Shown here one piece after another: positions 2,184-63,778 of a stretch of DNA of 64,000 nt (its first letter is position 1; the number at the start of each line of letters is the position of its first letter). A program made the translations under genes and the position numbers. Where the stretch lies: the NCBI GenBank assembly GCA_017510785.1, contig JAFWMH010000077.1, positions 1-64,000 on the forward strand, written 5' to 3'. The notes below the pieces were generated by a model. That model ran no database searches. It was not told where the DNA came from and saw only the letters and a list, made by a program, of their open reading frames with translations. Origin of the DNA: Atopobiaceae bacterium (GTDB taxonomy: Bacteria > Actinomycetota > Coriobacteriia > Coriobacteriales > Atopobiaceae).

Positions 2184-4349
2184 ATGCCACGTGGAGTAGT
2201 TAAAGTTCCCCAAATCATGCAGATGGAGATGACCGAGTGCGGTGCCGCCTGCCTCGGCATGGTTCTTGCCTACTATGGCAGGTGGGTTTCCCTCGCACAA
2301 CTGCGCATCGACTGTGGCGTCTCGCGTGATGGCTCGAAAATGGGTAACATCGCCATTGCCGCGCGCAGCTACGGCCTCGCTGCACAGGGCATGGCGTGCA
2401 ACACCCAAGCCCTTAAGGAAAAACAGTCCTTCCCTTGCATCCTCTTTTGGGAGTTCATGCATTTCGTTGTTCTCGACGGCTTCCATGGAGACTACGCCTA
2501 TCTCAACGACCCCGCAAAGGGCGAAATCCGCGTCCCAATGGACCAGTTCCAAACCTCGTACACAGGCATCGCCATATTATTCGACAAAACCGACGCCTTC
2601 GAAGAGGGCGGAACCAAGCCCGACTCAAAAGCCTTCGTACGCAAGCAGCTCCGAAGCCTCAAACGCCCCGTCGCCTTCGTAATCGCAACGACGGCACTCT
2701 GCTCGATCGCCGCCATCATCTCGTCGTCACTCTCGCGCGTGTTCCTCGATCAAGTCCTCGAGATGGGCAACACGGATTTGCTTTACCCGGTCGTCACGAT
2801 AGTCGTCGCCATGGCCCTTGTCACCTTCGTGATCAGCTTGCTCAATAACGCCGAGCTCATGCACATCCAGGGCAAACTCGCCGTGGTTTCATCCTCTCGA
2901 TTCATGCGCCACCTCCTGCACCTGCCCGTCAGCTTTTACGAGCAGCGCTCAATTGGTGACATCCAACAACGGCAGCAGTCCAACGAGGGCATTTCTTATC
3001 AGCTCGTAAACCAAATCGCACCCGTGTTCATTAACGGCGCCATGATGTTTTTGTATCTTGCCATCATGGTGCACTACAGCATCCCCCTCACCATGGTGGG
3101 TGTTACCACCGCCATTCTTAACGCCGTCGTTTCTCAGCGCATCTCGAAGAAGCGCACCAACATCGCCCGCTCGCAAGCAACCAACTCAAGCAAGCAGTAC
3201 GGCACCATGGTAGCTGGCATTCGGATGATTGAAACCATAAAGGCCTCAGGTGCCGAGACGGGCCTTTTCGGCCGCTGGGCCGCCTACCAGGCAGCATCGA
3301 ACGAAGACCGGGTGCGCACGTCCATGGTGAACGGATACCTCGGCATCGTTCCCGCCATACTTCAGGCACTTGCAAACGTGGCCGTTCTCGTGCTGGGCGT
3401 TTGTCTCATCGTGTTCGGGGAGTTCACCGCAGGTTCGCTTCTCGCCTTCCAAGGCTTTTTGAGCGCCTTCATGACGCCCGTCTCGCAGGTTATCCAGCTA
3501 GGCCAAACCATTCAGGAAATGATCACGCAAACGGAGCGCGTGGAGGATGTGCTCAACAACGATGTGGACGTTCCCGAAGACGAGGACCCAAGCGATGTTT
3601 TCGCACGCATTGCAGAGAATGACCAACGGTTGCGCGGACAGGTTGACCTCAACCACGTGAGCTTTGGCTACTCGCGGCTCGAGGACCCCATCATCAAGGA
3701 CCTCAGCCTCCACATGGAGCCAGGCACTTGGGTGGCGCTCGTAGGAGGCTCCGGTTGCGGCAAGTCGACCATCGCCAAGCTCATAAGCGGCCTGTACAAG
3801 CCATGGTCGGGCGAGGTGTACTTCGACGGCGTGCCCATGCAAGACGTGCCGCGTGAGGTGCTGCGCGCCTCGCTTGCCGTCGTGGACCAAGATGTGATTA
3901 CCTTCGACGACACCGTTTCCGATAACATCCGTCTTTGGGACCGCTCCATCCAAAGCGCCGATATTATCCTTGCCTGTCGCGACGCCGAGATTCACGACGT
4001 CATCGCCGCCCGCGAGGGAGGATACGAAGAGCGGCTTCTCCCCAACGGCCGCAACTATTCGGGCGGGCAGCTCCAAAGGCTCGAAATAGCGCGCGCACTG
4101 GCGTGCGAACCAACCATACTCATCCTCGACGAGGCCACGAGCGCGCTCGACGCACAAACCGAAGCCGAGGTCATCCGCCGCATACGCATGCGCGAGATAA
4201 GCTGCATCGTGGTGGCCCATCGCCTTTCCACCATACGCGACTGCGACGAAATCATCGTCCTCGACGAGGGCGAGGTCGTGGAGCGCGGCACTCATGACGA
4301 GCTGCTCGCCCTCGATGGCGCCTACGCACAACTGGTGAGGAGTGACTAA
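2184..4349 (+). CDS. C39 peptidase-containing peptide exporter ABC transporter (NHLP family)
   Basis: A 721-aa fused peptidase, permease and ATPase. An N-terminal C39 bacteriocin-processing peptidase has the expected triad: Cys19 in TECGAACL with Gln13 before it, His93 in MHFVVLDGF, and Asp109 in LNDPAKG. An ABC exporter membrane domain follows (about residues 160-440), then an ATPase with Walker A GGSGCGKST, signature YSGGQLQR, Walker B ILILDEATSALD and H-loop VVAHRLST. Family members cleave the leader of a double-glycine-type precursor and export the mature peptide. The start at 2184 fits the AGGAG at 2171-2175. The substrate is not visible in the window. Confidence 0.9.
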   Translation: MPRGVVKVPQIMQMEMTECGAACLGMVLAYYGRWVSLAQLRIDCGVSRDGSKMGNIAIAARSYGLAAQGMACNTQALKEKQSFPCILFWEFMHFVVLDGFHGDYAYLNDPAKGEIRVPMDQFQTSYTGIAILFDKTDAFEEGGTKPDSKAFVRKQLRSLKRPVAFVIATTALCSIAAIISSSLSRVFLDQVLEMGNTDLLYPVVTIVVAMALVTFVISLLNNAELMHIQGKLAVVSSSRFMRHLLHLPVSFYEQRSIGDIQQRQQSNEGISYQLVNQIAPVFINGAMMFLYLAIMVHYSIPLTMVGVTTAILNAVVSQRISKKRTNIARSQATNSSKQYGTMVAGIRMIETIKASGAETGLFGRWAAYQAASNEDRVRTSMVNGYLGIVPAILQALANVAVLVLGVCLIVFGEFTAGSLLAFQGFLSAFMTPVSQVIQLGQTIQEMITQTERVEDVLNNDVDVPEDEDPSDVFARIAENDQRLRGQVDLNHVSFGYSRLEDPIIKDLSLHMEPGTWVALVGGSGCGKSTIAKLISGLYKPWSGEVYFDGVPMQDVPREVLRASLAVVDQDVITFDDTVSDNIRLWDRSIQSADIILACRDAEIHDVIAAREGGYEERLLPNGRNYSGGQLQRLEIARALACEPTILILDEATSALDAQTEAEVIRRIRMREISCIVVAHRLSTIRDCDEIIVLDEGEVVERGTHDELLALDGAYAQLVRSD

Positions 4350-4350
4350 C

Positions 4351-6534
4351 ATGGGTTTTTTCGAATCGCAAATTAAGGTTCGCGCGCGTTTGGATACCGA
4401 ACTCACGGAACGTGCCTATGCCGACCTCGGAAACAGCGTACAATCGTCCCAACGAGGCGTCACGCATTCGAGCATCGACTCAGACGAGGTCGATGCCGCT
4501 GCGTACATATGTTTGGACTACCTTCGCGTAACGCACGGAACGGTTCCCGAGGGCATAACCGACCTCGACGAACGACTTGAGTATTTGTGCCGTCCGTCGG
4601 GAACCATGCGACGACAAATCAAGCTCGACGAAGGATGGCAATCCAACGCCTTTGGCGCCATGCTAGCTACGCTCGACACGGGCGAGGTGGTGGCACTCAT
4701 ACCTACCAAAACCGGCTTTTATCAAATGGTTAACGCCGCAGGCAACACCAGACGCGTTAACCGCGAGGTGGCCAAGCACATCGGTGATTCCGCGACCCTC
4801 TTTTATCGCCCCTTCCCCAACAAAAGACTAAAGGTGCGCGACCTCATTTGGTACATGGTAGAGACCCTCGAACCCATCGATTGCGTTCGCATTCTTGTGA
4901 CGGCGATCGTTGCTACGCTTGTGGGAATGCTCCCCACGTGGGCGAACAACATCGTCTTCACCACGGTGGTCCCCTCCGAAAACCTGCACTATGTGGGTCC
5001 CATCGCTTGCCTCTTGGTGGGCGTGGCCATTTCCAAGGTGCTTGTGGACACAATGAACGGATTCGCCATCTCGCGCCTCATCACCAAAATTAACCTCATG
5101 TGCGAGGCGGCAACCTACGCCCGCGTGCTCATGCTTCCGCCTTCCTTTTTCAAGCAATACGAAAGTGGCAGCCTCGCAGCGCGCGTGCAAAACGTTACCG
5201 TGCTCACGCAGCTCATCGTGTCGCTGGTGTTTGGTTCGGGACTCACGAGCCTCCTCTCGTTTGCATACCTCTTCCAAATTTGGATGTACGCCCCGCAGCT
5301 CGCCATCCCCGCCTTCGTTACCGTGGTGGCACAAATCGTTATTTCATTTATTGGCACATTGGCCACATTGCGCTACGACCGGGCTGCTCAGCAGGCCAAT
5401 GCCGAGCTCTCGGGCACGGTGACGTCGATTCTCAACGGCGTTTCGAAGGTCAAGCTCGCCGGCGCGGAGCGTCGAGCCTTCGCACGGTGGGCAAAAGGCT
5501 ACTCCGCATATGCAAACGCCAGCTACAACCGCCCTCTGTTCGTAATAGCTACATCAGCCTTTACCATGCTTGCGAGCGCCCTGGGCACAGCCGTCATCTA
5601 CCTTTCTGCGGGAGAGTCCGGCCTCTCTGTGGCGGACTACATGTCGTTTAACGTGGCTTACGGCATGATGCTCGCCGCCGTCGCGAGCATGGCAAACATG
5701 GCTTCGGAGATCGCGCAAATCGGCCCCATCATCGAACTCGTTGAACCGGTGCTCTCGACCGAACCCGAAGTGGCAGACGACAAACCCGTGGTAAGCAAGC
5801 TCAGTGGCACCATAGAGGTCTCCGGCCTCACCTTTCGCTACAAGGAAGGCTCTCCCTACATCCTGCACAACCTCTCGTTCCACATAAAATCTGGCGAGTA
5901 CGTGGCAATTGTGGGCAAAAGCGGATGCGGTAAATCCACCCTCGTTCGACTTCTCCTTGGCTTCGAGCAGGCGAATCGCGGATCCATCTTTTACGGCCCC
6001 TATGACGTGGGCAAGGTGGACCTTAGGAGCTTGCGACGCTCGATTGGCACCGTCACGCAGGACGGAAGACTCCTTTCGGGCTCCATCGCGTCGAACATTA
6101 CCATCTCGATGCCTCTTGCCACGCTTGACGACGCATGGAAAGCGGCAGAAATTGCCGGCGTCGCCGACGAAATCCGCAAGATGCCCATGGAAATGCAAAC
6201 GATCATCTCCGAGGGCACCGGCGGCATCTCAGGCGGACAGCGGCAACGCATTATGATTGCGCGCGCCGTGTGCGGCAATCGCAAAATCCTCATCCTCGAC
6301 GAGGCCACCTCGGCGCTCGACAACGTAACGCAACGGCAGGTGGCGGAGTCGCTCAGCAACCTGGGCTGCACGCGCATCGTTATTGCGCACCGTCTTTCCA
6401 CCGTAAAGAAATGCGACCGCATTCTCGTGCTTGACGGCGGACGCATTGCAGAGGAGGGCACGTACGACGAGCTCATCGCCCGCGATGGTCTGTTCGCCGA
6501 GCTCGTGAGTCGCCAGCAGCTCGACGGCGCGTGA
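4351..6534 (+). CDS. Second ABC exporter permease/ATPase of the NHLP-type export operon
   Basis: A 727-aa ABC half-transporter with a long N-terminal domain (about 165 residues) without a C39 triad, as in the partner subunit of NHLP export systems. A membrane domain follows, then an ATPase with Walker A GKSGCGKST, signature ISGGQRQR, Walker B ILILDEATSALD and H-loop IAHRLST. ATG at 4351 is preceded by AGGAG (4338-4342); an in-frame GTG at 4342 is a less likely start. The gene begins 1 bp after the C39 exporter stops, so the two are probably co-translated and form a heterodimer. No modifying enzyme or immunity gene follows. Confidence 0.85.
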   Translation: MGFFESQIKVRARLDTELTERAYADLGNSVQSSQRGVTHSSIDSDEVDAAAYICLDYLRVTHGTVPEGITDLDERLEYLCRPSGTMRRQIKLDEGWQSNAFGAMLATLDTGEVVALIPTKTGFYQMVNAAGNTRRVNREVAKHIGDSATLFYRPFPNKRLKVRDLIWYMVETLEPIDCVRILVTAIVATLVGMLPTWANNIVFTTVVPSENLHYVGPIACLLVGVAISKVLVDTMNGFAISRLITKINLMCEAATYARVLMLPPSFFKQYESGSLAARVQNVTVLTQLIVSLVFGSGLTSLLSFAYLFQIWMYAPQLAIPAFVTVVAQIVISFIGTLATLRYDRAAQQANAELSGTVTSILNGVSKVKLAGAERRAFARWAKGYSAYANASYNRPLFVIATSAFTMLASALGTAVIYLSAGESGLSVADYMSFNVAYGMMLAAVASMANMASEIAQIGPIIELVEPVLSTEPEVADDKPVVSKLSGTIEVSGLTFRYKEGSPYILHNLSFHIKSGEYVAIVGKSGCGKSTLVRLLLGFEQANRGSIFYGPYDVGKVDLRSLRRSIGTVTQDGRLLSGSIASNITISMPLATLDDAWKAAEIAGVADEIRKMPMEMQTIISEGTGGISGGQRQRIMIARAVCGNRKILILDEATSALDNVTQRQVAESLSNLGCTRIVIAHRLSTVKKCDRILVLDGGRIAEEGTYDELIARDGLFAELVSRQQLDGA

Positions 6535-57240: not shown

Positions 57241-60063
57241 TTAGAGCTTGGCAGCTCCGCCGTTGGACTTAATCTTGGCCTGAGCAGCCGCGAGACGTGC
57301 GATGGGCACGCGGAACGGCGAGCAGGACACGTAGTCGAGGCCGAGATCGTAGTACACTTGGATGGAGTCGGGATCGCCGCCGGTCTCGCCGCACACGCCG
57401 CACATGATGTCGGGGTTCGTGTCGTGGCCACCCTTGACGCCGAGCTCGACGAGGCGTGCAACGCCACGGTCGATGGTCGCGAACGGGTTGAGCTTGATGA
57501 GCTTCTCCTCGAGGTAGGTGTCCATGAAGGAGGACTCAACGTCGTCGCGCGAGAAGCCGAGGCACGTCTGCGTGAGGTCGTTGGTGCCGAAGGAGAAGAA
57601 GTCGGCATACTTGGCGATGTGGTCGGCGGTGATGGCCGCACGCGGGAGCTCGATCATGGTGCCGATGGGGATATCGAGCTTGATGCCGTACTCCTCCTCG
57701 ACTGCCTTGATGTCGTCCTCGCACATCCAGCGGAGGTGCTTGAGCTCCTCGGAGAAGGCCACGAGCGGAATCATGATTTCCGGCTTGGCGTCGACGCCCT
57801 CCTTGATGAGCTCGGCCGCCGCCTCGCAAATGGCACGGAACTGCATGTGGTTGAGCTCGGGATACAGGAAGCCGAGGCGGCAGCCACGGGTGCCGAGCAT
57901 GGGGTTGGCCTCCTGGAAGGAGTCGATGCGCTTGAGCAGAGCCGTCTTGGTGGCGACTGCCTTGCAGAGCTCGTCCTTGAGGGCGCAGAGCTTCTCGTCA
58001 ACGGTAGCAGCAGCGTCAACGGCCTTGGCGGCAGCGTCGAGCTTGGCAATCTCTACCTCGAGCTCACGCGGGGAGTCGAGGAACTCATGCAGCGGCGGAT
58101 CGAGCAGGCGCACGATGACGGGCAGGCCGGCCATAGCCTTGAACATGCCAAGGAAGTCGCCCTTCTGGGCCTCGCCAAGCTTCTTGAGAACCTCGGCCTT
58201 GACCTCGGCATCGTCGGAAAGGATGAAGTCCTGGATGAGCTGCTTGCGGTCGCCCAGGAACATGTGCTCGGTGCGGCACAAACCGATGCCCACGGCACCG
58301 TTCTCGCGGCTGAGCTCGGCATCCTCGGGGTTGTCGGCGTTGGCGCGAACACCCATCACGCGGCCACGCTCGGGGTTGAGGCGAATCTCGTCGGCCCAAT
58401 CCAGGATGGTTTGCACGTCGCCACCGAGCTCGGGGCGCACGAGCTTGAGCTCACCGAGGTAGATGTTGCCCGTGGAGCCGTCGATGGAGATGACGTCGCC
58501 CTCGTGCAGCACCACGTCGGTGCCGGCAATGGTGCACTTCTTGTTGGGAGCGTCAATCTGCAGAGCCTCGGCGCCGCAAACGCAGGGAGCACCCATGCCA
58601 CGGGCGATAACGGCCGCGTGGCTCGTCTTGCCACCATGCGAGGTGAGGATGCCCTCGGCTGCAACCATGCCGTGCAGGTCGTCGGGGGTCGTCTCCCAGC
58701 GCACGAGCACGCAGGGCTTGCCGGCGGCTGCCCACTCTTCGGCAACCTCGGAGCTAAACACGACGCCACCCACGGCAGCGCCGGGCGAGGCGTTGAGGCC
58801 CTTGGCGAGAACTTCCTTGGCCTTGATGTCGGCCGCGTCGAACTGCGGGTGCAGGAGCTGGTCGAGCTGGTCGGGGGCCACGCGCATAACGGCCTCTTCC
58901 TTGGTGATGCGACCCTCCTCAACCATCTGGATGGCGACCTTCAACGCGGAGAGGGCGGTACGCTTGCCCACGCGGGTTTGCAGCATGAAGAGCTTGCCCT
59001 GCTCGATGGTGAACTCGAGGTCCATCATGTCCGCGTAGTGATCCTCGAGGATCTCGAAGACGTGGAAGAGCTGCTTGCCAGCCTCCTCCAGACCAGGCTC
59101 GGTGGGGAGCTTGGCGATGGGCTCGGTGTTACGGATGCCGGCTACGACGTCCTCACCCTGAGCGTTGACCAGGTAGTCACCATAGCGCTCGTTTGTACCG
59201 TCGGCGGGGTTACGGGTAAAGGCAACGCCGGTTGCGGAGGTGTTGCCCTTGTTGCCGAATGCCATGACCTGGACGTTAACGGCGGTGCCCAGGGAGTCGT
59301 CAATCTTGTTCTGCTTGCGGTACAAGATGGCGCGCTCGGTGTTCCAAGAACCAAATACGGCCTGCTCGGCAAGACGGAGCTGCAGAATGGGGTCGTGAGG
59401 GAAGACGGCCTTGCCATCAACCTCAACCTCGGGGTAATCGGCAACGTTCACGTTGTCGGCAAAAATCTGCTTAAAGGTGGCGACAAGATCCTTGAGGTCG
59501 TCGGCATCGAGGTCGGTGTCGAGCTTGACGCCCTTCTCGGCCTTCTTGGCGGAGATGGCATCCTCGAACAGCTGGCCGGAAACGCCCATAACGACGCTCG
59601 AGAACATCTGCACGAAACGACGATAGGAGTCGTACGCGAAGCGGGGGTTCTCGGTTTGCTTGATGAGGCCCTGCACGGAGTCGTCGTTGAGGCCAAGGTT
59701 AAGAACGGTATCCATCATGCCGGGCATCGAGAAGGGAGCACCGGAACGAACGGAAACGAGCAGCGGGTCGTCGGCGTCGCCGAGCTTCTTGCCCATGCGC
59801 TCCTCGAGGTCCTTGCGATACTCGTCGATCTCGTCCAGAACGCCCTCGGGCCACACGTTGCCAGCGCTGGAGTACTCAACGCAAGTCTGGCAGGTAATGG
59901 TAAAGCCCGCAGGGACCGGAAGGCCCAGAGCCGCCATCTCGGCAAGGTTGGCACCCTTGCCACCGGTAATCCACTTTGCTTCGTCGACCGTTGCGCCAGC
60001 AACCTCGGAAACGTTGTTGCCCTCTTGGTCGAAACCGAAGCGATACACATGCTTCTCTGCCAT
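57241..60063 (-). CDS. ppdK: Pyruvate, phosphate dikinase
   Basis: A 940-aa enzyme that interconverts pyruvate, ATP and phosphate with phosphoenolpyruvate, AMP and pyrophosphate. The ATP-grasp domain starts at KWITGGKGANLAEM. The phosphohistidine domain has GGKTSHAAVIARGMG, with the swivelling His at about residue 482. The C-terminal PEP barrel has GTNDLTQTCLGFSRDD and GVCGETGGD. ATG at 60063 follows AAGGAG. In fermenting bacteria it often runs towards ATP. A truncated PPDK regulator gene lies directly upstream. Confidence 0.97.
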   Translation of the reverse strand: MAEKHVYRFGFDQEGNNVSEVAGATVDEAKWITGGKGANLAEMAALGLPVPAGFTITCQTCVEYSSAGNVWPEGVLDEIDEYRKDLEERMGKKLGDADDPLLVSVRSGAPFSMPGMMDTVLNLGLNDDSVQGLIKQTENPRFAYDSYRRFVQMFSSVVMGVSGQLFEDAISAKKAEKGVKLDTDLDADDLKDLVATFKQIFADNVNVADYPEVEVDGKAVFPHDPILQLRLAEQAVFGSWNTERAILYRKQNKIDDSLGTAVNVQVMAFGNKGNTSATGVAFTRNPADGTNERYGDYLVNAQGEDVVAGIRNTEPIAKLPTEPGLEEAGKQLFHVFEILEDHYADMMDLEFTIEQGKLFMLQTRVGKRTALSALKVAIQMVEEGRITKEEAVMRVAPDQLDQLLHPQFDAADIKAKEVLAKGLNASPGAAVGGVVFSSEVAEEWAAAGKPCVLVRWETTPDDLHGMVAAEGILTSHGGKTSHAAVIARGMGAPCVCGAEALQIDAPNKKCTIAGTDVVLHEGDVISIDGSTGNIYLGELKLVRPELGGDVQTILDWADEIRLNPERGRVMGVRANADNPEDAELSRENGAVGIGLCRTEHMFLGDRKQLIQDFILSDDAEVKAEVLKKLGEAQKGDFLGMFKAMAGLPVIVRLLDPPLHEFLDSPRELEVEIAKLDAAAKAVDAAATVDEKLCALKDELCKAVATKTALLKRIDSFQEANPMLGTRGCRLGFLYPELNHMQFRAICEAAAELIKEGVDAKPEIMIPLVAFSEELKHLRWMCEDDIKAVEEEYGIKLDIPIGTMIELPRAAITADHIAKYADFFSFGTNDLTQTCLGFSRDDVESSFMDTYLEEKLIKLNPFATIDRGVARLVELGVKGGHDTNPDIMCGVCGETGGDPDSIQVYYDLGLDYVSCSPFRVPIARLAAAQAKIKSNGGAAKL

Positions 60064-60170: not shown

Positions 60171-60199
60171 CAAAAAACCCCGCCCCACGAGGGACGGGG
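60171..60199 (-). terminator. Terminator between the PPDK regulator gene and ppdK
   Basis: On the minus strand CCCCGTCCC pairs with GGGGCGGGG, followed by TTTTTTG. It suggests that ppdK has its own promoter. Confidence 0.9.
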
Positions 60200-60231: not shown

Positions 60232-60639
60232 CTACTCGGCGGCGTTTACCAAAAGGCGATCGCGCAGGGCGCCAACCTTGTTGGAGGGCTCAACGCCAGT
60301 GAGCGTGGAGAGCACCGTAACCGCAGGACCAAGGAGGTCGATTGCGGGGATGCCACGCTTCACGAGTGCATGGCGCACATCGCGGCGCAGACGCTCGTCG
60401 ACGAACGTGTGGAACACGGCGATGGGACGACCCTCTTCCTGGGCATCCATAAACGTGTTCACGTCCTGGACGTTGCGCGCATCCGGAAGGCGTGCGATAT
60501 CAACCGCATCCTCCTCGAACTGTGCCGCAGCTGCGGCTACGACGCTATAGGCGGTATCACCGCGAGCGTCCGAAATGATAAGAACGATGGGCTTGACGTC
60601 CTCGACGACCTCGTCAGTGCTCAGATCGAGTGTGGCCAT
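60232..60639 (-). CDS. Short PPDK/PEP synthase regulatory-protein-like protein (N-terminal half only)
   Basis: A 135-aa protein; ATG at 60639 behind GAGAGGAG. It resembles the N-terminal half of DUF299 (PF03618) bifunctional kinase/pyrophosphorylases: IVLIISDARGDTAYSVVAAA, FHTFVDERLRRDV and IPAIDLLGPAVTVLSTLTGVEPS. The full-length protein is about 270 aa and carries a P-loop (GVSRTSKTP-like) in the second half, which is missing here. The frame ends cleanly and is followed by a terminator, so there is no hidden C-terminal half. The place next to ppdK supports a link to PPDK control, but it cannot carry the known kinase activity. Confidence 0.7.
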   Translation of the reverse strand: MATLDLSTDEVVEDVKPIVLIISDARGDTAYSVVAAAAAQFEEDAVDIARLPDARNVQDVNTFMDAQEEGRPIAVFHTFVDERLRRDVRHALVKRGIPAIDLLGPAVTVLSTLTGVEPSNKVGALRDRLLVNAAE

Positions 60640-60770
60640 AGTTTCTCCTCTCGTAAGCTTCCGAAGCTAAATACCAGTTTGCACATAATGGCAACCCTCG
60701 TCTACCGCAAAGTCGCGATTGGCAAGCACGTTTCGGCGAGGTGTACCACCATACGCTTTCTCCACATACT

Positions 60771-62867
60771 TTAGCGCTTTTTTGCCATGGCGCCAATATT
60801 TGCAATGCCCGAAAATGCGCCCTCGAAGCGATTGAGTAGCCTCAGGCGGTTTTCGCGCACCTCGATGTTCTCGTCCATTACGAGAACATCCTCGAAGAAC
60901 ACGTCAATCGGCTCCCGCAAACGCGCAAGGGCAGCAATGGCGTCGTCGAGCCTGCCCTCCGTTATGGCCTCCTCGACCTCCGCGGAACCTTGGTCCACGG
61001 CATCGAGCAACGCGCGCTCGGCATCGCCCAAAATCGTTTGGTCCACATCGACGTCCAGCGTGGCATCGGCCAAATGGCTCGCGCGGGCATAGGCGGTCGC
61101 GAGGTCGTCGAAGAGCTCGCGCTGACTGCTGCGCGCGCTGCCCAAAGCCTGCACGCGACCGAGGAAGGCCGCCGGATCGCAAATGCCGGTATCGGCAACC
61201 GCCTTGATGGTATCGGGCTCGGCACCCTCGTCGCGCGCGATGGCCGAAAGACGTCCCACGAAGAACGCGCAAACCTGGGCCGCCACTTCGCCCTCGTCAA
61301 ACGCAATGCCCTGCACTGCATACGCGTTGAGCGCCGCGTCGATGAGCGACGGCAAGGACACGCGCTCCATCTTGCGCAGCATGACGATCACGCCGATGGC
61401 GGCACGACGCACCGCGAACGGGTCGGCCGAGCCGGTGGGGGGCTCGCCGATGGCGAACATGCCGCAAATGGTGTCGAGCTTGTCGGCCACGGCCACGGCC
61501 ATGCCAACCACGGACGAGGGCAGCACGTCGCCGGCAAAGCGCGGGCGATAATGCTCGGCTATGGCCTGGGCTACGGCGTCGTTCTCGCCCTGGGCCTTTG
61601 CGTAGTAGCCGCCCATCACACCCTGCTGGCTCGTGAACTCCACGACCGTTTGCGAGACGAGGTCGGCCTTCGCCAGATGCGCGGCGCGCGCGGCATCGTT
61701 CGCGACGTCCTCGTCTCCCGTGGCCTGCGTCGCCACAAGGCGTGCGAGCGCCTCCATGCGCTCCGTCTTTTGCAAAACGGTGCCGAGTTTCTTTTGGAAC
61801 ACCACGTTGGCAAGGCGCTCCCTAAAGGCGTCGAGCCCCACCTTGAGGTCCTCGTCGTAGAAGAACTTGGCGTCGTCGAGGCGCGGGCGCACCACGCGCT
61901 CGTTACCCGAGCGCACCGTGTCGTTCACCTCGGGGTTAGCGTTGGAAACGATTACGAACTCGCGCGTGAGCTTTCCCTCGGCGTCGTAAATCGGGAAGTA
62001 GCGCTGATGCGTAAGCATGGCCTCAACGATGATTTCCTGCGGCACGGCAAGGAACTCCTCGTCGAACTCGCCCACCACGATTGTGGGCCACTCGCACAGG
62101 TTGACGACCTCGTCGAACACGGCCTTGGGCGTATCGACGTGCGCACCTCCGCGCTCGCGCTCGAGCTCGGCGATTCCCTCGCGAATAACACGGGCGCGCT
62201 CGCGCTCCCCGAGCACAAAGGCGTCGCGCAGCACCTGCTCGTATGCCGCAGGGCTCTCCACCACATGCTCGCCAGGACCCAGCACACGATGTCCGCGCGT
62301 GGTGTTGCCACTTTTCACGTCGGCATACGAGACGGGGATTACGTCGGAGCCAAGCAGGGCCACAATCCAGCGAATGGGACGCACGAACGTTTGGTGCTCG
62401 CTCCCCCACCGCTGACTACGGTAGTTGGGCCACTGAATCGCGCCGATGGTGCGCTCACAAAGCCCCGAAAGGAGCTCGGTAGCGCTCACCGAGGGCACGA
62501 ACTTCTCTGCGAAGATATACTCGTTGCCATCGGGGCCCTCATGGCGCTCGAGGGCACTCACGTCAACGCCGTTCTTTCGCGCGAAGCCCTGCGCCGCACG
62601 CGTGGGCTTTCCGTCCGCGTCGAAGGCGATTTGCGCCTTGGGGCCGCGCACCGATTCGCGAATCTCCTCCGTGGCGGTGGCGCAGTCCTTGGCAACGACG
62701 GCGAGGCGGCGCGGCGTGGAGAGCGTGTACACCTCTCCGTGGGCAAGCCCCGCATCCTTGAGCCCCTTTTCTACAAGCTTCTCGAGCTGCTGCTGCGCGT
62801 TCATGAGGGGACGCGACGGCATCTCCTCGCAGCCTATCTCCAGCAAAAAGTCCAAGGTGTTCGCCAT
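60771..62867 (-). CDS. glyS: Glycyl-tRNA synthetase beta subunit
   Basis: A 698-aa subunit of the alpha2beta2 bacterial enzyme. It begins DFLLEIGCEEMPSR, and the body shows RRLAVVAKDCA, FVRPIRWIVALLGSDVIP, RGHRVLGPG and the HD-like DKLDTICGMFAIGEPPTGSADPFAVRRAA. The C-terminal anticodon-binding part includes VFFEDVLVMDEN. ATG at 62867 directly follows the glyQ stop. Confidence 0.97.
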   Translation of the reverse strand: MANTLDFLLEIGCEEMPSRPLMNAQQQLEKLVEKGLKDAGLAHGEVYTLSTPRRLAVVAKDCATATEEIRESVRGPKAQIAFDADGKPTRAAQGFARKNGVDVSALERHEGPDGNEYIFAEKFVPSVSATELLSGLCERTIGAIQWPNYRSQRWGSEHQTFVRPIRWIVALLGSDVIPVSYADVKSGNTTRGHRVLGPGEHVVESPAAYEQVLRDAFVLGERERARVIREGIAELERERGGAHVDTPKAVFDEVVNLCEWPTIVVGEFDEEFLAVPQEIIVEAMLTHQRYFPIYDAEGKLTREFVIVSNANPEVNDTVRSGNERVVRPRLDDAKFFYDEDLKVGLDAFRERLANVVFQKKLGTVLQKTERMEALARLVATQATGDEDVANDAARAAHLAKADLVSQTVVEFTSQQGVMGGYYAKAQGENDAVAQAIAEHYRPRFAGDVLPSSVVGMAVAVADKLDTICGMFAIGEPPTGSADPFAVRRAAIGVIVMLRKMERVSLPSLIDAALNAYAVQGIAFDEGEVAAQVCAFFVGRLSAIARDEGAEPDTIKAVADTGICDPAAFLGRVQALGSARSSQRELFDDLATAYARASHLADATLDVDVDQTILGDAERALLDAVDQGSAEVEEAITEGRLDDAIAALARLREPIDVFFEDVLVMDENIEVRENRLRLLNRFEGAFSGIANIGAMAKKR

Positions 62868-63767
62868 TTAGGCCACCTCCCCCTTCTTCGCGTCGTCGCG
62901 CGCGGCGACCAGCTCCAAATACGCCTCGCAGCATGCCTTCGCCACGTCGCGCACGCGCAGGATGTAGTTGGCTCGCTCGGTTGCCGAAATGGCACCACGA
63001 GCATCGAGGATGTTGAAGGCGTGGCTGCACTTCATGACGCAGTCGTACGCGGGAAGCGGAAGCTTGGCCTTAAGGCAGCTGTGGCACTCCGCCTCGTACT
63101 CGTCGAACTTGCGACGCATCATGTCGACGTCGGCCACCTCGAAGTTATAGCAGCTGAACTCGTACTCGTTCTCGTGGAACACGTCCCCATACGTCATGGG
63201 GCTTCCGTCGGGAAGATACGACCACACGAGATCGTACACCGAGTCCACGCCCTGGATGTACATGGCGATGCGCTCCAAGCCGTAGGTAATCTCCACGGGC
63301 ACCGGATCCACCTCGATGCCACCCACCTGCTGGAAGTAGGTGTACTGAGTTACCTCCATGCCGTCGAGCCATACCTCCCAACCAAGGCCCCAGGCACCGA
63401 GCGTCGGGCTCTCCCAGTCGTCCTCGACGAAGCGTACGTCGTGCTCCGCAGGGTCGAGACCGATGGCCTTGAGGGAATCGAGGTACAGCTCCTGGCTGTT
63501 TTGTGGGCACGGCTTAACAATAACTTGGAACTGATAATAGTGCTGCATACGGTTGGGATTCTCTCCGTAACGCCCGTCCGCAGGACGACGGCACGGCTGC
63601 GGATAGCACGTGCGCCAGGCGGCAGGTCCCAGGCTCCTGAGCGTCGTTGCCGTGTGGAACGTACCGGCTCCGACCTCCGAGTCGTACGGTTGCATCACGG
63701 TACAGCCCTGCTGGGCCCAATACTCCGTGAGTTTGAGGATCATGTCCTGAAAGGTTAGGTCCTTCAT
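62868..63767 (-). CDS. glyQ: Glycyl-tRNA synthetase alpha subunit
   Basis: A 299-aa catalytic subunit of class II type. Signatures: [59 protein letters not shown] and [19 protein letters not shown]. The ATG at 63767 is preferred because AAAGGAG lies 6 bp upstream; an ATG two codons earlier would be too close. lepB ends 11 bp upstream. No T-box was seen before it. Confidence 0.97.
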
Positions 63768-63778
63768 CGTCATCTCCT

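Follow-up and report, generated by a model that had tools for sequence, protein, structure and literature searches.

A 135-residue gene beside ppdK, the gene for pyruvate phosphate dikinase (PPDK), raises the question of what becomes of the PPDK regulatory protein (PDRP) when only its N-terminal half is encoded. The gene lies in the window, the 64,000-nucleotide stretch analysed here, from an Atopobiaceae genome of 3.56 Mb (81 contigs, 96.4% complete). The features of the locus are as follows.

60232..60639, minus strand: coding sequence of the stand-alone N-terminal half of PDRP, 135 aa, ATG start and clean stop (open reading frame, Pfam match, family homologues, purifying selection)
60645..60649, minus strand: ribosome binding site AGGAG, ending 5 nt before the ATG of the half (read from the sequence)
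60550..60573, minus strand: pseudo-P-loop SDARGDTA, residues 23-30 of the half, including the class-A residue Arg26 (conserved columns and site table)
60178..60199, minus strand: intrinsic terminator downstream of the half and upstream of ppdK, 9 pairs (8 G-C) followed by TTTTTT (terminator scan)
57241..60063, minus strand: ppdK, gene for pyruvate phosphate dikinase (940 aa), GGKTSHAAV marking the region of the regulatory Thr and catalytic His (TIGR01828, 1201.9 bits)
60771..62867, minus strand: glyS, beta subunit of glycine--tRNA ligase, the gene immediately upstream of the half (identified by search)
62868..63773, minus strand: glyQ, glycine--tRNA ligase alpha subunit (identified by search)

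The reading frame is intact, with the ribosome site and clean stop that the original prediction had described. Pfam analysis of the protein revealed a single family, PF03618 (Kinase-PPPase, DUF299), with E of 3.4e-17 and 63.4 bits against a gathering cut-off of 23.5. Residues 19-126 align to profile positions 1-107 of 256 only, confirming both the assignment to this family, rather than to another, and the claim that only the N-terminal half is present. NCBIfam PRK05339 (270 positions, cut-off 225 bits) likewise aligns in its N-terminal part, over positions 6-114, and scores 61.1 bits. The half shares its superfamily with PSRP/PpsR of E. coli (NCBIfam PEPSynRegPpsR, NF049928), and a weak N-terminal match of 19 bits was observed; this is far under the 350-bit cut-off of that family, and the neighbour of the half is PPDK, not PEP synthase.

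The protein had also been described as lacking the P-loop. This holds for the half that carries the kinase P-loop, which reads GVSRTSKTPLS in most full-length family PDRPs read and is missing here, but the half retains a P-loop-like element of its own, SDARGDTA, which contains no Lys. In our own reading of the sequence, this pseudo-P-loop would be the counterpart of the loop that binds phosphate in the sister domain.

An AlphaFold2 model of the half, built from a 48-row alignment, has an alpha/beta fold with pLDDT of 89.5. Among PDB entries, maize PDRP matches it best (5d0n, titled 'bound with AMP'; E of 7e-06 with Foldseek), and superposition on residues 136-257 of the 5d0n chain, its N-terminal part, gave Z of 14.3 and rmsd of 3.0 over 116 residues, the next entry reaching Z of 7.8. 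The predicted model thus has the fold of the PDRP N-terminal domain, which in 5d0n is a P-loop-like fold without an active site. In sequence, predicted fold and glyQS-PDRP-ppdK neighbourhood, the half resembles the PDRP/DUF299 proteins (PF03618; maize PDRP1, Listeria PDRP1), full-length genes being read in that neighbourhood in other families of the class. It differs in having no catalytic C-terminal domain, and none was found elsewhere in the genome. According to one study, PDRP has a single active site in the C-terminal domain, to which mutants assign both activities, and the N-terminal domain, with the same fold and a P-loop, has a proposed allosteric role (PMC9138534). A review states that the Listeria PDRP mechanism is the plant one (PMC8100219).

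The search for a catalytic half was extended to 33 genomes (30 bearing halves, G283 and two full-length controls), using a profile built from 11 C-terminal halves. Both controls were positive, while nothing was detected in any of the 30 half-bearing genomes, the window's own included, nor in G283, and a C-terminal half encoded elsewhere in these genomes was rejected accordingly. A remnant behind the half was rejected as well: tblastn of C-terminal halves against the half loci, with matches considered to E of 10, gave a best E of 0.5 and no remnant near the halves, contrary to loss of the C-terminal half by frameshift. A full-length regulator elsewhere in the own genome, which the original prediction had proposed to look for, was not found, the genome containing one PF03618 match at E <= 0.001. 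A C-terminal domain with kinase P-loop is absent from the protein and was found in neither the locus nor the genome; a PPDK with the target Thr is encoded by the adjoining ppdK.

Given this absence and the published mechanism, the half cannot be a kinase/pyrophosphorylase. That it alone keeps one of the two activities, for instance a Pi-dependent pyrophosphorylase, is very unlikely: a P-loop-like element with a new Arg is retained, but it has no Lys, the C-terminal domain is missing, and the published mutants place both activities in the active site of that domain (PMC9138534). A split enzyme, in which the kinase half acts in trans from a C-terminal half or another DUF299 protein, appears equally remote, if not more so. 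Such an enzyme would fit the PPDK regulatory Thr, since GGKTSHAAV is kept in 52/52 aligned PPDK sequences, but retention of the Thr says little, as genomes with a full-length PDRP and those with a half do not differ in it; the empty C-terminal profile and the single PF03618 match in the own genome argue against it.

The distribution of the half was examined in relatives and in wider samples. Half and full-length states both occur among 60 relatives and 296 genomes of the class. The PF03618 search matched 256 of the 296 class genomes, 77 of them in Atopobiaceae (f1), where ten have a best E below 1e-55, on the scale of full-length proteins, and 67 fall between 4e-13 and 4e-19, on the scale of halves. 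Matching class genomes of other families have a best E of 1.5e-55 or lower, which is full-length scale. With the window protein as query, 132 of all 140 f1 genomes matched, including 100 of the 101 of good quality. By frame length among the matches listed, 22 of the 32 matching f1 genera (117 genomes) contain N-terminal halves only, although some of the 117 end at contig ends (G015, G028, G026) and genus g14 is represented only by a piece of this sort; the class-A frames, those of the window's kind, are of 213 aa or less. Full-length PDRP frames were found in 15 f1 genomes from 10 genera, with the C-terminal half present in 15/15 loci.

Stand-alone halves outside f1 were rejected, the matches there being full-length in both class and phylum samples. 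Among 376 genomes of the phylum, 46 match, 37 of them outside f1 in frames of at least 268 aa (two with one stop inside the match), and none outside f1 is a stand-alone half. A profile of a second kind of half (class B, below), searched against 396 class genomes, gave outside f1 only frames of at least 291 aa among the matches listed (to about E 1e-29).

To assess whether the half is maintained, dN/dS was estimated for 13 pairs of class-A halves, all of which gave values of 0.018-0.267; these are rough, because the pairs share some genomes, so that not all are independent, and some dS exceed 1. The half is comparable with its neighbours in the same pairs, namely ppdK at 0.035-0.190 (11 readable pairs) and glyS at 0.045-0.275 (13 pairs), while six pairs of class-B halves gave 0.072-0.443, indicating looser selection than in class A. 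Start codon, ribosome binding site and motifs are retained in the class-A loci read. Twelve columns are invariant in 48 aligned halves (of 60): D24, G27, T29, A37, F76, H77, T78, R85, D101, G104, P118 and G123, and the pseudo-P-loop has the consensus SDxxGxT. Arg26 is present in 33/35 main class-A halves but in 0/15 full-length f1 N-terminal domains, 0/20 class-B halves and 0/6 outgroup sequences. Four class-A rows stand outside the main set; residue 26 is Arg in those of g19 and g144 and Glu in both from g20. Arg86 is found in 35/35 main class-A halves, against 4/15 full-length f1, 3/20 class-B and 3/6 outgroup sequences. Together, the Arg26 and Arg86 patterns indicate that the retained half is subject to its own constraints, among them a positive charge in the pseudo-P-loop.

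These results bear on the proposal, also made in the original prediction, that the gene is a relic, that is, a broken PDRP gene being lost. Half of the protein is missing, the full-length PDRP of genus g18 has a degenerate P-loop, and the class-B half of the own genome is a piece of about 25 codons (L202). The low dN/dS in every class-A pair, the retention of the half across 22 genera with start, ribosome binding site and motifs in the loci read, columns such as Arg86 that are tighter than in the parent domain, and an origin on the tree at least twice nevertheless make decay exceedingly improbable. The other option raised there, a new form of regulator, gains support from a stand-alone half that is conserved and selected in most genera of the family, with the C-terminal half found in 0/30 genomes. 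It is well supported that the half is a functional gene encoding a non-catalytic protein derived from PDRP. Pseudoenzymes are non-catalytic regulators derived from enzymes; the half resembles them as an enzyme-derived domain without active site that is retained under selection, and differs in that the entire catalytic domain is gone and the companion domain alone is retained.

To trace the truncation, a tree of glyS and ppdK was built for 60 loci, on which the half/full label requires at least five changes. Full-length rows L168 and L170, on short contigs, are nested among halves; transfer or mixed assemblies are possible. A single origin of all halves was rejected on this tree (p-AU 7e-124) and was borderline without genus g20 (p-AU 0.044); the test used 51 of the 60 rows, leaving out as long, fragmentary or near-duplicate L139, L176, L178, L168, L110, L163, L106, L123 and L175. 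In a tree of the N-terminal domain, built from 78 rows and 110 columns and weak at many forks, class B forms one clade (100/99), and 37 class-A rows group with full-length L169 (93/86), the two g20 halves standing apart. L139 (g19) falls beside full-length g11 in the glyS and ppdK tree and inside class A in the domain tree. From the two trees and the single-origin test, truncation at the glyS-ppdK locus would have occurred on two or more occasions, barring transfer of the locus. The g18 genes mentioned above (L176, 5539-6375; L178, 5956-6792) are full-length, with GLSGSAKTPL in place of GVSRTSKTPL as kinase P-loop and with ppdK outside the locus, elsewhere in the genome; they may perhaps represent an earlier stage of loss.

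We next consider the surroundings of the half, having searched for other stand-alone halves by ppdK as originally suggested. In the 40 class-A loci read (39 from relatives and the window), ppdK lies next door, downstream on the same strand, in 38. The exceptions, L117 (G108) and L139 (G033), have ppdK elsewhere in the genome and the half still beside glyS. Two further genomes from the genus of G108 (G029, G220) have ppdK about 70-75 kb from the half, while two others (G134, G120) have it adjacent; thus ppdK has moved off and the half been kept in four genomes of two genera. Upstream, glyS is present in 39/39 class-A loci whose contig extends far enough, within about 360 nt of the half in 38 and at 1.7 kb in L108. 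The order glyS-PDRP-ppdK is also found with full-length PDRP in other families (6/6 loci, L179-L184). The order therefore predates the truncation, which happened in place, and the adjacency of half and ppdK, being inherited, is weak evidence of partnership. One gene-neighbourhood paper mentions PF03618 together with PPDK_N in the vicinity of SelO; the group concerned consists largely of Escherichia, Salmonella and Klebsiella, and these are not stand-alone halves (PMC10364804).

The predicted terminator after the half was recovered at 60199-60178, but the scan is weak evidence by itself, since the region yielded 7 terminator-like sites where shuffled sequences would lead one to expect 5.3. By the same scan, 12 of the 38 class-A loci with ppdK downstream have a terminator-like site in the gap between half and ppdK, which measures 162-408 nt. 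Moved ppdK genes, terminator and inherited gene order together weaken the link of the half to PPDK. That the half may bind PPDK, the example given in the original prediction, is plausible.

It is accordingly possible, if doubtful, that the half is functional with a target other than PPDK, as a portable domain that binds a ligand or protein on behalf of some other enzyme or process, with ppdK nearby through inherited order behind glyQS. Constant glyS, ppdK not next door in two loci and the terminator in the window speak for this. Against it, no class-A locus read ties the half to a new enzyme, and very few good-quality family genomes were found to have no PPDK-grade match. A PPDK match over cut-off was obtained in 114/140 family genomes, many of the remaining ones being split over contigs, and the only such good-quality genomes found are G318, in which the contig ends 292 bases from the half, and G359, where only the second kind of half, and no class-A half, is among the matches listed.

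This second kind, class B, also bears on the target. It comprises 20 further stand-alone halves; the four that were compared with PF03618 align from position 1 as far as 106-110, and neither ppdK nor glyS was found in the stretches read around any of the 20. A class-B model matches 5d0n with Z of 8.5, tied with unrelated Rossmann-like folds, so that the identity of class B rests on its sequence. In group B1 (L151-L162; halves at about 6000 in most, at 2826 in L157, 4070 in L161 and 5536 in L162), the gene immediately preceding the half encodes a glycyl-radical-enzyme activase in 12/12 loci, and the half is divergent from the gene of the enzyme (PFL2-type). A fructose-6-phosphate-aldolase-like gene follows in 11, and L154 stops before that point. 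The families were assigned on L155 (TIGR02494, 310 bits; TIGR01774, 916 bits) and the other loci by similarity; the 12 loci come from four genera and are not a count of independent events. In group B2 (L142, L144, L145, L148 and L149, five genera), the half is directly downstream of deoC (TIGR00126, assigned on L142) in 4/5, with deoC about 1 kb away in L148; a GntR regulator is near 4/5, as is a DUF218-like gene (DUF218 match under the Pfam cut-off). In group B3 (L147, L150; about 4200-6363), the half is near nrdG with one gene between, hydrolase-like by reading, while L146 shares no neighbour with other class-B loci. These paralogous halves beside an activase or deoC favour a target other than PPDK for the domain. 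In G327, a class-B half occurs apart from the full-length PDRP that lies at ppdK.

In the own genome (G000), the class-B profile detected one further piece of 25 residues. It lies directly behind a B1-type activase (L202, 1507-1581; contig C63, about 45237) and is followed by unrelated, partly repeated sequence, reflecting either decay or assembly error.

Weighing these observations, we tentatively favour a non-catalytic, PDRP-derived subunit that most likely binds PPDK and replaces reversible phosphorylation, with adenylate or phosphate at its pseudo-P-loop. In this proposal, the C-terminal kinase/pyrophosphorylase domain would have been lost in the window's lineage, and with it the ability to switch PPDK by phosphorylating the active-site Thr, while the N-terminal domain would be retained as a small regulatory subunit. 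The half would most likely bind PPDK non-covalently and alter its activity, and adenylate or phosphate at the pseudo-P-loop SDARGxTA would set the response of PPDK. Maize PDRP reportedly binds AMP at its N-terminal P-loop, and AMP is a substrate/product of PPDK. We infer PPDK as partner, the ligand and the direction of the effect. More speculatively, the PDRP N-terminal domain might be a portable non-catalytic sensor that the family has repeatedly separated from the kinase and joined to one metabolic enzyme or another: in class A to PPDK, with at least two truncations and non-covalent control replacing phosphorylation, in B1 to a glycyl-radical module of enzyme and activase that includes a fructose-6-phosphate-aldolase-like gene, and in B2 to deoC.

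If the favoured reading is right, control at the PEP-pyruvate node changed repeatedly from a covalent to a non-covalent switch. The review mentioned above holds that every bacterium with PPDK has a PDRP (DUF299) homologue (PMC8100219), in contrast to a PPDK-bearing family in which most genera have only a selected, non-catalytic half. Retention of the half without the kinase would point to a different mode of metabolic control. The natural deletions of the kinase domain also isolate the N-terminal domain, for which an allosteric role has been proposed (PMC9138534). Among the open-licence papers searched, none was found that describes stand-alone halves of this kind.

Comparison of the PPDK sequences revealed no change tied to the presence of the half. 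An altered regulatory Thr was rejected, the motif being invariant, as was a half-linked insertion: the longest window-specific stretch (686-699) is missing also in half-bearing L116, as in the full-length genomes compared. The ppdK match is in two pieces in G023 (contig C3, 197952-200733) and G020 (contig C3, 20011-22703), either from genuine damage or from an error of assembly. Pyruvate kinase loss was also rejected as a driver, because a match is present in 136/140 family genomes, in half and full genera alike, and so does not explain the half/full pattern. Two pyruvate kinase matches were observed in 14/16 genomes of the window's genus g1, and mostly one elsewhere in the family.
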